Counted from the first letter of the stretch, positions 13,564 through 17,760 are shown. The stretch is DNA of 64,000 nucleotides from Vulcanisaeta souniana JCM 11219 (GCF_026000775.1 NZ_AP026830.1:248001-312000), one strand, 5' to 3'. Program-made: numbers and translations. The notes: generated by a model not told the origin, from the sequence alone.

Positions 13564-13701
13564 TAGAAGCATTAACGCTACACCCTAAATAAGCTTTACA
13601 ACCCGCGGTGAAGTCCTACCGAAATTTAAACAGAACATTGGGTAACAGCGCATCACCCTTATTTAATTCCTACCTAATCACGAAGCTAAAAACCAAACCT
13701 A

Positions 13702-14044
13702 CTCGATTCACTTTCTCTGAATAGCCGAAGTTAAAAAAAAGTCCCGTGAAATAATAGATTCTGATGGTTATGGGTTTGGGAAGGGGGTGGTTGTTGGTGG
13801 TTTTGGTTGTTGTCGCTGTCCTTTCCTTGGTCTTTGCTTTCCACGTGGCTAATAGGTTGGGGGGTGAGGTCGTTGGTCAGGCAAGTCCTAATGCCGTAGG
13901 TGGGTCAGCATTGGTAAGTATTAACGTGCCTATTTACGTTGTTGGGCCGGCAACACTCATTCAGGGATTAATCAACGCGGGCATAAACCAATCAACAATC
14001 AAACCAACAACCACAAACCAATTAACAACCCTACCAAACAATAG
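13702..14044 (+). repeat. 343-bp inverted repeat, left arm
   Basis: This arm matches the right arm (17025-17366) in inverted orientation. Base-by-base comparison finds one difference, an A8 run here against A7 there, upstream of the start codon. It contains the promoter region (GAAGTTAAAAAAAA about 30 bases before the ATG at 13764) and the first ~94 codons of the gene, ending precisely in codons for LTTLPNNS. Identity stops abruptly at both edges. The arms enclose about 2.98 kb. Confidence 0.97.
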
Positions 14045-15335
14045 TGTTGTTGTTATTGATTGGGATTCTTTATTGAGCTATTCGGGTAGTGATTACTCGG
14101 TAATTACTGGCGTCCTGAATGTACTATTTAGGAGGGGTGACTTGGTGATTATTCACGTATCAAGTACTGAGGAAAGCCCATTGGCAATGTTGGCCTTGGC
14201 TCAGTCATGGGCCAAGGCCTACGGCAGTAAAATAACGACCTACCCAATCATCGCCGGGCAGTACCTCTCAGCCTTCGGCAGCAAAAACGCACTAGTATTC
14301 GGCAGTAGCTACAAAACCAAAGACATAATAGGCATAATAACTAACTACCAACGAACAATCAGTACATGGGGTCGTGAAGTAGGGTCAAACCAGGTATCGC
14401 CTCTTAATATTTACGAACAATATGAGTTACAGAGTACGACATTAACGAATGTTGATCCGTGCCAGAAGTATGTTCAAAATGAGAATAGCCTAGGCGGTGT
14501 CGTCTTTGATTATCAACCTTATTATAATGGCGTTGATACCGAGGCTTATAATGATGGCAATGGCACCCTTTACTACGATACGTGCATATTCGTTTATAAC
14601 GGCAATGGGGAACCATATATACCCGCCGGCGCTGCGCCGTATTACTCTGTGGCAACTGCCGCATGGATCGCCTATTCACCGTCAAGCACCATGATTAGTA
14701 ACAATGGCTACATAAACTACTTCATAGGCACCATGGACCATGAGCTGGGGTGGGATGATTACCAAAGCGGCACCACTAATTCATACCTAGAGTATGAGAG
14801 TGGTGCGAACCCGGCATCAACGTCATCAAATTACGTCGTGAGATTCACAGTCGAGTTTGGAACTGGTGGTGTGAATATGGCATTCGAGGTTGAGTATAGT
14901 GAATCGCCATCATCCGTCAGGATTCAGAGTGAGAATACAGCGCCAACTACGAATACGGCAGCTTTTAATAACACCTGGCGGTTCTACATGGGTGAAAGCC
15001 AACAGGCTAATCAGAAGTACATAGTGGCATTCGCCGAGGACGCCGATGAGTGGGTACTACCGCAGGGGCTCAATACTTATCAAACCGCCACCTTTAACAA
15101 TGAATTAGGCGTTAATCTAGTCACGTCGGTGCAGGACATACCGTGCACTGCATGGGTCTATAACTACGAGGTTATATGGACCCAAATCCAGTGGGTACTA
15201 CAGTACAACCCAGGTTCATCACCACCAACAGGCTTCAGCGCTCAGATAGTAAATCAACAAAGCCCGTACGACATAACCGGAGTAACATCATACAGCGAAT
15301 CCATACCATACACCTGCGGTGACATAATAACATAG
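13764..15335 (+). CDS. Membrane-anchored extracellular protein, inverted-repeat paralog A
   Basis: Unknown function. Residues 5-30 are a strong hydrophobic segment (GWLLVVLVVVAVLSLVFAF) after a short basic N-terminus: a signal anchor or uncleaved signal peptide. The rest (523 aa) is predicted outside the cell, rich in Ser, Thr, Asn, Tyr and Gly. Landmarks shared with paralog B are a Rossmann-like block (VVVIDWDSLLS, AQSWAKAYG), DPCQKY, EAYNDGNGTLYYDTC, SNNGYINYFIG, and near the end TGVTSYSESIPYTCG. Four or more cysteines are conserved between the two, suggesting disulfides. The first ~94 codons are identical to paralog B at DNA level and the remainder is diverged. Surface-layer accessory or adhesin-like roles are guesses. 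Confidence 0.8.
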   Translation: MVMGLGRGWLLVVLVVVAVLSLVFAFHVANRLGGEVVGQASPNAVGGSALVSINVPIYVVGPATLIQGLINAGINQSTIKPTTTNQLTTLPNNSVVVIDWDSLLSYSGSDYSVITGVLNVLFRRGDLVIIHVSSTEESPLAMLALAQSWAKAYGSKITTYPIIAGQYLSAFGSKNALVFGSSYKTKDIIGIITNYQRTISTWGREVGSNQVSPLNIYEQYELQSTTLTNVDPCQKYVQNENSLGGVVFDYQPYYNGVDTEAYNDGNGTLYYDTCIFVYNGNGEPYIPAGAAPYYSVATAAWIAYSPSSTMISNNGYINYFIGTMDHELGWDDYQSGTTNSYLEYESGANPASTSSNYVVRFTVEFGTGGVNMAFEVEYSESPSSVRIQSENTAPTTNTAAFNNTWRFYMGESQQANQKYIVAFAEDADEWVLPQGLNTYQTATFNNELGVNLVTSVQDIPCTAWVYNYEVIWTQIQWVLQYNPGSSPPTGFSAQIVNQQSPYDITGVTSYSESIPYTCGDIIT

Positions 15336-15386
15336 TTTAGCTAGTAATGCTTTATCTTCCTCAAAATGGTGATTTCTTGGTCTTAA

Positions 15387-15530
15387 TCAATATTCCAATG
15401 CGTGGGCCAGGGTCAATCCTTCGAGGACTAAGGCTGGGCTGTCGTGGACTGAGACCCTACTAAGATCCGCAACATCCAGCGCATTATCTTCCAACAAACA
15501 CGAAGTGCATAAAGGCAAGAGGGAAAAGGG
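15387..15530 (-). pseudogene. Possible gene remnant between the two paralogs
   Basis: The 320-bp gap between the convergent paralogs has no full gene. On the minus strand an open stretch ending in TGA at 15387 encodes text that looks coding (LCTSCLLEDNALDVADLSR, then PALVLEGLTLAHALEY) with no start and a stop just upstream. A second open stretch directly beyond the stop of paralog B (about 15558-15654, +1 frame) reads SYEFNYQVYISNLSSYYPAP and resembles the composition of the paralogs' C-termini. Both could be leftovers of recombined cassettes, or chance. Confidence 0.25.
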
Positions 15531-15655
15531 AAATGTTTGCTCTTAGATTCTTGGGTTATGAGCATGGGCCTGCATTGAAATCTGCGTAGAGTGTGGGTGC
15601 TGGGTAGTAACTGCTTAAGTTGCTTATGTAAACCTGGTAATTAAACTCATAAGAC

Positions 15656-17305
15656 CTATTTACTCAGGAATGGACATATTATGGGCACCGCATATGACGT
15701 TACACCGGTTACGTAGGAATATGGTGAGCCATATATGTATGATTGACCTGATATGCTAGCTGCTGTGCTTGATTGCGGGGTAACAATGACCACCCACTTA
15801 ATATCGGCCCAGATAGTTTGATAAACCTCATAGGCGCATGGGTATTGTGCCGTGACCACATTATTCTCAAAATCAACATTGAACACAGCCGTGTTCTGCG
15901 ATGTTAAACTTGATAAGTATATGTTAGCCGGTGTTAGGTCTTCAAAGGAATTTGGGAAATCCCGCTGATTAGCACCATAACCTATGTTGAAGATCCACGT
16001 AATGTTAGCCACCTCTACAGTCCAGCCATTAAAACTTGTTGTCTCGGCAGGGCTAAGTGAACCACTAATACTCTCACTAGTACCGGTGGGTAATGATATG
16101 CTAACACTAACGCTTGGAATTCCCGTAACGGTTACACCAAACGACACGGTGTAGCTAGCCGTATTACTTGTTGATGGTGGATTCCACGAACTAGGACTGA
16201 ACGTACCACCACCTTGATCACCAATGAATGCGTTGGTTGCACCGGCGCTGTATTGTTGATATCCGTAATAATAATCAATAGCCCCTAGCTGTGAAACAAT
16301 ATAACCATTATTACCATACATAGTTGAGGATTCATAATAATTCTCATAGCCAAGAACCTGAGCCGCTAGATAATAAGTTGGGTTATATCCACCTAGCTGC
16401 TCCTCATTAATCGAGTTAGCCACGGCGAGACATGTATCCCAATAGAACGTTCCATTGCCGTCGGTATACCCCTCTACACCACTATCCGATATACCAACCC
16501 ACATTGGTGTTGTCCATATGAGGGTACTACTGCTTGTCGAATAAACACCAGGTGCGGGGTTTGAATAAGAACCGCCAATGTATTTCTCATACTCGGCATA
16601 ACATGGATCTTTCAACCTAAGGATAGGCTTCATAATACCTACTATGAACTGCGGTAGTTGGTTTAGGTATATTGGGCCTATGATCAGGCCTCTTGGTCTA
16701 ACCCACTTTACAACGAACACCGCTGGCTCTCTATCGCTCACTGGGATTACTGGGTAAGCAATTAAATAGTCTGGGACTTCCTCCCTGAGCATTACGCCGT
16801 TTAAAATCAACCCATTATTAATTGCCTTAGCCCATGAATAGGCTAGTACGAATTCGATGATGCCCTCATCACTTGCGTTTGCATATATACCAACAATATC
16901 ACCCCTGGCAATTGCGTTAGCCAGCCCGTGAATCACCGGGCTTGTTAGGTTAACCTTGACCTTATCACCTGAGTCGTTCATTATGATGCTCGGTTTTATT
17001 ATTGACCAGTCGATGATTATTATGCTATTGTTTGGTAGGGTTGTTAATTGGTTTGTGGTTGTTGGTTTGATTGTTGATTGGTTTATGCCCGCGTTGATTA
17101 ATCCCTGAATGAGTGTTGCCGGCCCAACAACGTAAATAGGCACGTTAATACTTACCAATGCTGACCCACCTACGGCATTAGGACTTGCCTGACCAACGAC
17201 CTCACCCCCCAACCTATTAGCCACGTGGAAAGCAAAGACCAAGGAAAGGACAGCGACAACAACCAAAACCACCAACAACCACCCCCTTCCCAAACCCATA
17301 ACCAT
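15656..17305 (-). CDS. Membrane-anchored extracellular protein, inverted-repeat paralog B
   Basis: Convergent paralog of the 13764-15335 gene, 549 aa, with the same first ~94 residues including the hydrophobic anchor at residues 5-30. After LTTLPNNS the sequence diverges but stays homologous: IIIIDWSII, VLAYSWAKAI, DPCYAEY, EGYTDGNGTFYWDTC, NNGYIVSQLGAIDYYYGYQQYS and TGVTSYAVPIICPF align with paralog A. It carries a segment, DREPAVFVVKWVRPRG, with no clear equivalent in A. Function unknown; predicted membrane-tethered and external. Its promoter lies in the repeat, so the two copies should be regulated alike unless sequence beyond 17366 matters. Confidence 0.8.
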   Translation of the reverse strand: MVMGLGRGWLLVVLVVVAVLSLVFAFHVANRLGGEVVGQASPNAVGGSALVSINVPIYVVGPATLIQGLINAGINQSTIKPTTTNQLTTLPNNSIIIIDWSIIKPSIIMNDSGDKVKVNLTSPVIHGLANAIARGDIVGIYANASDEGIIEFVLAYSWAKAINNGLILNGVMLREEVPDYLIAYPVIPVSDREPAVFVVKWVRPRGLIIGPIYLNQLPQFIVGIMKPILRLKDPCYAEYEKYIGGSYSNPAPGVYSTSSSTLIWTTPMWVGISDSGVEGYTDGNGTFYWDTCLAVANSINEEQLGGYNPTYYLAAQVLGYENYYESSTMYGNNGYIVSQLGAIDYYYGYQQYSAGATNAFIGDQGGGTFSPSSWNPPSTSNTASYTVSFGVTVTGIPSVSVSISLPTGTSESISGSLSPAETTSFNGWTVEVANITWIFNIGYGANQRDFPNSFEDLTPANIYLSSLTSQNTAVFNVDFENNVVTAQYPCAYEVYQTIWADIKWVVIVTPQSSTAASISGQSYIYGSPYSYVTGVTSYAVPIICPFLSK

Positions 17306-17366
17306 CAGAATCTATTATTTCACGGGACTTTTTTTAACTTCGGCTATTCAGAGAAAGTGAATCGAG
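17025..17366 (-). repeat. 342-bp inverted repeat, right arm
   Basis: Reverse complement of 13702-14044 with one single-base length difference in an A run. It covers the promoter and first ~94 codons of paralog B. Bases on either side (GCTCG against ACTCG outside; CATAATAATC against TGTTGTTGTT inside) show that the homology ends within one or two bases. Confidence 0.97.
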
Positions 17367-17683
17367 CAAGTTCAGTTTTTCAGTCCTGTAACTAATACCT
17401 ACTTGAGTGATTGACGATTTATTGCCTAAATGTGACGTAGAATTCGATGAATAATGGTTAGCTTAAGAGCCGTATAGTGTAATCGTTATTCATGAAGCCC
17501 ATTTTTCATTATCCACATTACTTCCTCTAGAACGAGGGATGTGGGTATTAAATCATGAAATTTCGCTATCAAGAGTCTCTCATAAGGGCGTTGGAAGTCA
17601 ATGAACGAGTAATTCAAGGGACGAAACCCAAATTAACTGGGAACAAACCCAGTGCATTAAGAAACAGGGAAAAGAATGACCCG
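17367..17683. other. Intergenic region, no gene found
   Basis: Between the right repeat arm and tRNA-Ala. Only short open frames occur; one on the plus strand (from about 17555) runs through the tRNA and is not credible. A 12-base direct repeat CAGGGAAAAGAA occurs at 17665-17676 and again at 17760-17771, flanking the tRNA. Confidence 0.6.
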
Positions 17684-17760
17684 TGGTGGACCGGCCGGGA
17701 TTTGAACCCGGGTTCTCCCGCGTGCGAGGCGGGCATCCTTCCAGGCTAGACTACCGGCCC
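17684..17760 (-). tRNA. tRNA-Ala (anticodon CGC)
   Basis: The minus strand folds as a standard cloverleaf: acceptor GGGCCGG/CCGGTCC with the G3:U70 pair that identifies alanine tRNAs, D-stem GTCT/GGAT, anticodon stem CCCGC/GCGGG around the loop CTCGCAC (anticodon CGC), T-stem CCGGG/CCCGG with loop TTCAAAT. Discriminator A and a CCA are encoded. No intron is seen, although tRNA introns are frequent in Thermoproteales. Confidence 0.96.

Follow-up and report, generated by a model that had tools for sequence, protein, structure and literature searches.

A probable recent gene conversion tract between two members of a dispersed, putative surface-protein family in Vulcanisaeta souniana

The near-perfect inverted repeat that carries the 5' ends of two putative surface-protein genes in the hot-spring archaeon Vulcanisaeta souniana is most probably (about 78%, by our estimate) a recent tract of ectopic gene conversion between two members of a dispersed gene family that share a promoter box and a leader. 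The two genes, A and B, lie in the 64-kb stretch of DNA that was analyzed (the window), which comprises bases 248001 to 312000 of the single 2,432,148-bp V. souniana contig (Table 1). The initial annotation had described 343-bp inverted repeats, each holding a promoter and about 94 codons, and the sequence comparison across the window confirmed their coordinates and their identity: the sole difference between the arms is one A in a homopolymer, and the box, the ATG, and 94 codons are present in each. The sharp loss of identity that had been reported beyond the arms was also recovered, A and B being 33% identical in amino acids and 45% identical in nucleotides past codon 94, while a weaker extension (92%) carries the arms outward to 13688 and 17380. 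With 20-base seeds, the arm pair was the only repeat of at least 60 bp found in the window, and a chance origin can therefore be excluded. A genome-wide search for further copies found the full unit only at the A/B locus; the next-best match in the V. souniana genome covers 114 bp at 80% identity and lies at 2,097 kb.

Table 1. Features of the A/B locus, in window coordinates
Feature	Position	Strand	Remark
A-type upstream sequence	13688-13701	+	diverged counterpart beyond right arm, 17367-17380
Left arm, 343 bp	13702-14044	+	box, start, and codons 1 to 94 of gene A
Family promoter box CTCGANTCACTTTNNNTGAAYASCCRRAGTWAAAAA, gene A copy	13702-13737	+	TTCA-N7-TGAA dyad, then TATA-like A-run
Gene A, 523 aa	13764-15335	+	N-terminal TM/signal, alpha/beta domain, C-terminal beta-rich domain
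Mosaic breakpoint, gene A	13865-13869	.	A-type up to 13864, B-type from 13870
Distal end of conversion tract, gene A	14039-14045	.	return to A-type
171 bp after A, where V. distributa has B	15368-15538	.	unmatched in five genomes searched
Gene C 3' relic, last 31 codons, adjoining B 3' end	15539-15652	-	90% identical in aa to C of V. distributa
Gene B, 549 aa, paralog of A	15656-17305	-	V. distributa ortholog on + strand, tandem to A
Right arm, 342 bp, lacking one A	17025-17366	-	equivalent module for gene B
Mosaic breakpoint, gene B equivalent	near 17200-17204		
Family promoter box, gene B copy	17331-17366	-	match to 36-bp box
Spacer, B promoter to tRNA-Ala	17381-17683	.	unmatched to upstream regions of A or C
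tRNA-Ala (CGC)	17684-17760	-	borders variable slot in several species

Comparison with the sister species V. distributa (genome G008; 2,374,137 bp [PMC3035369]) showed that both arms are mosaics. Sites were typed as A-type or B-type at the positions at which V. distributa A and B differ; in that species the 5' ends of the two genes are only ~70 to 75% alike, with 54 to 56% amino acid identity over the arm-equivalent coding region. In V. souniana, both genes follow the A-type over 13688 to 13864 (59:9 sites in A and 58:8 in B) and then the B-type over 13870 to 14042 (43:5 sites in each), and past the tract A reverts to A-type (21:1) whereas B remains B-type (19:2). The break is highly significant (maximum chi-square, 0 of 20,000 permutations; Fisher P = 3e-17). 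Since the mosaic is found in both genes, neither arm is original: B has the promoter and signal of A, and A has codons ~36 to 94 of B. The proteins show the same exchange, as VsA and VsB are 100% identical over codons 1 to 94, with the two halves of this region giving 77% and 58% amino acid identity for VsA against VdA and 51% and 93% for VsB against VdB.

The tract is also young. None of 53 fourfold-degenerate sites differ between the arms, whereas between species the orthologous bodies differ at 17/178 and 18/185 (~10%) and flanking genes at 25/150 and 20/66; at 10 to 17% divergence, such identity would arise by chance with a probability of 0.004 to 0.00005. Within the tract the paralogs are thus closer to each other than to their orthologs, the mosaic ends are abrupt, the identity postdates speciation, and conversion recurs elsewhere in the family (see below). 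We interpret this pattern as ectopic gene conversion after the species split, rather than as an old duplication or a collapsed assembly, and the mosaic arm together with the fourfold sites bears out the earlier proposal that conversion holds the 5' ends identical. The direction and number of conversion events are read from one sister species, and an unsampled donor paralog could have given part of the tract. Just outside the arms, 5 of 14 bases differ between 13688-13701 and 17367-17380 and the B side is still A-like; these very few bases suggest that A's upstream region was passed to B at an earlier time and that homogenization followed in a later round.

A single recent inverted duplication of the 5' end of A onto B, with A unaltered, would agree with the A-type upstream sequence that runs past the right arm to 17380. 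However, gene A carries the B-type tract at 13870 to 14042 and hence was changed too, so that this explanation is contradicted, except if conversion had instead altered the A gene of V. distributa, and we consider it scarcely credible. Still less weight can be given to an assembly artefact, in which a collapsed repeat was entered at both places, an explanation that the initial annotation had raised. Repeats do get merged in short-read graph assemblies, and the complete V. souniana IC-059 genome, assembled with Unicycler from Illumina reads and ~30 Mb of Nanopore reads (N50, 5.7 kb), has a Nanopore depth of only ~12x (PMC9872577). However, collapse needs arms that are near-identical beforehand; arms of 70 to 75% identity would have stayed unmerged, and no chimera of two such sequences, and hence no A/B mosaic, could have come from merging. 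Moreover, one A separates the arms, their flanks are distinct, and the syntenic flanks are intact on both sides. It may still be that the assembler gave both arms the same consensus, which would mask a few single-base differences, and that at this depth a population of mixed orientations was represented by one.

The conversion tract lies in a locus that has been rearranged between species. The order in V. distributa is A(+), B(+), C(-), and tRNA-Ala, with flanks as in V. souniana, where the order is A(+), 171 bp, the 31-codon relic of C, B(-), a spacer of ~300 bp, and tRNA-Ala. Gene B in V. souniana is therefore inverted and sits in the slot held by the unrelated gene C in V. distributa; its 3' junctions show no long homology. 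The slot between the threonine-dehydratase-like gene and tRNA-Ala holds three genes in V. distributa and two in V. souniana, a B relic and an unrelated gene with the same leader type in the MAG G003, and a decayed promoter with no gene in G009; it is empty in G002 and in G004, the genome that we take to be V. moutnovskia. The relic in G003 is a C-terminal part of B on the + strand, which fits the tandem A-B order as ancestral. Two contigs of G003 break within 8 bp of the codon-94 border (L120 1-14 and L121 1-14). These breaks may reflect repeats or mixed strains, and they were not accepted as proof of switching, since C35 and C47 appear to represent two strains that are mixed in the MAG.

Gene C has moved as well and is found with different leaders in three different, nonsyntenic places in three species. 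A full V. souniana copy at 845 kb has an in-frame TAG and a damaged start, and the corresponding V. distributa site is occupied by a relic that comprises an A/B-type promoter and ~95 codons. The V. moutnovskia copy is at 340 kb, and the corresponding place in V. distributa is empty; a candidate match of VmC340 to the relic slot at 1,477 kb was discarded, as it proved to be a paralogous oxidoreductase. Within the spacer between B and tRNA-Ala, just the tRNA-proximal 64 bp recurs, beside tRNA-Ala(TGC) at 1,880 kb, and the spacer was rejected as an element or att site because only the tRNA-Ala block recurs. The tRNA-Ala(CGC) gene of the window and the tRNA-Ala(TGC) gene (L083 1565-1641) lie in a 183-bp block that is 98% identical and includes both flanks, which suggests conversion between tRNA loci within one genome. 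About 6 of the 19 to 20 distinct family slots have a tRNA gene within roughly 0.5 kb (window 17684, L031 2345, L034 10551, L125 6972, L079 9640, and L063 7703), a count that falls to 5 without the uncertain ARAGORN call at L063; a rough binomial test, tallied after the fact, gave P values of 2e-6 to 5e-5.

What the family has in common is its 5' end. The 36-bp box occurs upstream of family genes at 7, 7, and 6 sites in three genomes and at none in reversed controls, and it probably serves as promoter and operator. Most of the full-length members examined carry their own box, with Vm157 as an exception, and A and B, each with a full promoter, are probably coregulated. The promoter and leader also stand ahead of bodies with no relation to A/B (Vs2097, Vd590, Vd1698, Vm708, Vm307, and C), so that one conserved 5' module is joined to interchangeable bodies, the leader being common to the A/B, C, Vd1698-like, and Vs2097-like bodies. 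In V. distributa, the module relic Vd1077 ends at codon 94, the same border as that of the arm module.

A similar tract was found in V. moutnovskia, in which Vm157 and Vm643, ~490 kb apart, have ~315 bp in common with a handful of mismatches before falling to ~70 to 75% identity; we read it as a second, independent conversion tract. Upstream of both genes lies a copied MinD/FleN-like 3' end, and the promoter was copied as well. In the same species, a short gene that is unrelated but has the family leader lies between the promoter and the leaderless A/B-type body Vm157 (L086 6621-9114 and L039 6862-8541). The nearest relatives of successive segments disagree along A, B, and Vm643, and three V. 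souniana/V. distributa pairs (914/1010, 931/991, and 969/953) are congruent over their whole length and syntenic. Reassortment of leaders and bodies is accordingly real but slow, proceeding on an evolutionary time scale.

Seven full-length family members and a number of relics are dispersed over the V. souniana chromosome. The predicted model of A has an N-terminal hydrophobic segment, an alpha/beta domain (residues ~55 to 203), and a beta-rich C-terminal part, an architecture common to A and B. Neither protein matched a Pfam or NCBIfam family, and no relative was found among PDB sequences. The top match of the A model in a fold search was Vibrio pro-alpha-hemolysin (TM score, 0.40), followed by several beta-pore-forming proteins; a function was not assigned on this basis, since the TM score and the mean pLDDT of the model (71) are too weak. 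A viral origin of the family was considered and rejected, as neither a tblastn search of A against 50,697 phage records nor a search of the promoter box against IMG/VR gave a match. The label "surface" is putative and derives from the signal/TM segment, the domain architecture, and the position of one member, Vm981 of V. moutnovskia, in a cluster of type IV pilus genes, where a MinD/FleN-like ATPase and a secretion ATPase immediately precede it. That locus (L040 2019-13055) also has a HerA-like ATPase and is possibly a pilus or DNA transfer system.

The initial annotation had taken the locus for a surface-protein switch, in which recombination between the arms flips the interior and different cells make different proteins. 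Homologous recombination would find a good substrate in long, near-perfect repeats that flank 2.9 kb in inverted orientation, the genes are paralogs encoding putatively extracytoplasmic proteins, and the module border at codon 94 recurs in the Vd1077 relic. The interior probably does invert at some frequency. However, each arm contains a complete promoter and start, so that a flip should leave both genes expressed; the predicted products are identical in both orientations, and inversion should have little effect. The expectation that a flip would re-pair bodies and flanks therefore holds for the side on which each body lies and would fail for expression. The annotated absence of an adjacent recombinase gene was upheld: the flanking genes within ~5 kb encode HSP20, MetG, Dcd, a PALP enzyme, a peroxiredoxin, a molybdopterin oxidoreductase, a PAPS reductase, and two proteins without a family, and no recombinase was found among them. 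The closest integrase seen beside a gene with the family promoter is near Vs2097 at 2.1 Mb. There, an archaeal phage-type tyrosine recombinase (L032 9772-11225) overlaps tRNA-Gly ~2 to 3 kb from Vs2097 and is possibly the remnant of an integrated element. Gene A keeps its side of the locus between V. souniana and V. distributa, and the three other syntenic family genes are unmoved, which also speaks against a switch. Judged from the sequence, an on/off switch is probably not present, and we regard the switch hypothesis as distinctly improbable.

A cassette system, which had also been suggested, fared better as a description than as a mechanism. Between species, B is in the slot of C, C is in three places, and the slot contents vary, so that "cassette-like" is a fair description on an evolutionary time scale; as a switch, the idea lacks support, and a single expression site with silent, promoterless copies does not fit a family in which most members have a box. 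Specific machinery, with leader-targeted exchange moving whole bodies (A/B, C, and others) between slots behind resident promoters, would agree with the three slots and different leaders of C, with the presence of B in C's slot, with the unrelated body behind the same leader in the G003 slot, with the fleN-like 3' ends and promoter copies at Vm157 and Vm643, and with the proximity of several slots to tRNA genes. We nevertheless think it unlikely: the three syntenic pairs have not moved since the species split, no dedicated enzyme was seen, and generic homologous and illegitimate recombination would be enough.

In the Campylobacter fetus sap S-layer family, one promoter serves many silent copies, and inversion switches expression. 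The V. souniana locus resembles sap in its conserved 5' region, unlike bodies, inverted copies, and recombination within the 5' region, but A and B each have their own promoter. Invertons and shufflons likewise have, near surface genes, a DNA segment flanked by inverted repeats, and they depend on a dedicated site-specific recombinase that is usually nearby (PMC5903667), whereas the A/B repeats are 343 bp long and no recombinase was found near them. A further parallel lies in the conversion and concerted evolution of prokaryotic paralogs (PMC6053082), including archaeal mtrA (PMC4632066), with which A and B have in common paralogs that are closer within a species than orthologs, sharp tract ends, and a tract that is recent relative to speciation. 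The archaeal genes in the genome-wide survey of conversion were all from methanogens and mostly metabolic (PMC6053082); in contrast to the surveyed cases, only the promoter and 5' part of A and B were homogenized, and the bodies are far apart. Thermoproteales type IV pilus loci include large signal-peptide proteins (PMC4858521), which recalls the position of Vm981, but most of the family lies dispersed, at a distance from pilus genes, and pilus membership is putative.

The gene conversion reading suggests the following history. In the common ancestor, A and B probably lay in tandem, with C after them on the opposite strand, the arrangement that V. distributa has today. In the V. souniana lineage, as the sequence comparison shows, B came to sit inverted in the slot of C, leaving the C relic. 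B gained the promoter and signal of A (A-type to codon ~34) and A the codons ~36 to 94 of B, and the entire module was homogenized to identity after the species split. We hypothesize that homologous recombination of the RadA type acts where the paralogs are most alike, which would limit the tract, and that homology of the leaders aids the relocation of bodies to other slots, several of them beside tRNA genes. RadA may occasionally flip the 2.9-kb interior, changing the side of each body and leaving expression as it was.

The A/B locus provides a case, dated with the help of a sister species, of ectopic conversion and gene relocation in a surface-protein family of a hyperthermophilic crenarchaeon, and it cautions against reading every long, perfect inverted repeat at surface genes as a switch. 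The shared promoter and leader offer a simple route by which cells could diversify the surface that is met by viruses and neighbors. A broader proposal, which we offer as speculation and presently doubt, is that Vulcanisaeta practices leader-based reassortment, in which a promoter-plus-signal module of ~120 to 345 bp occupies about twenty slots, of which many adjoin tRNA genes, at least four unrelated body families are exchanged by recombination, and the A/B inversion is one live intermediate. If true, this would be an archaeal counterpart of the variable surface-protein families of bacteria.
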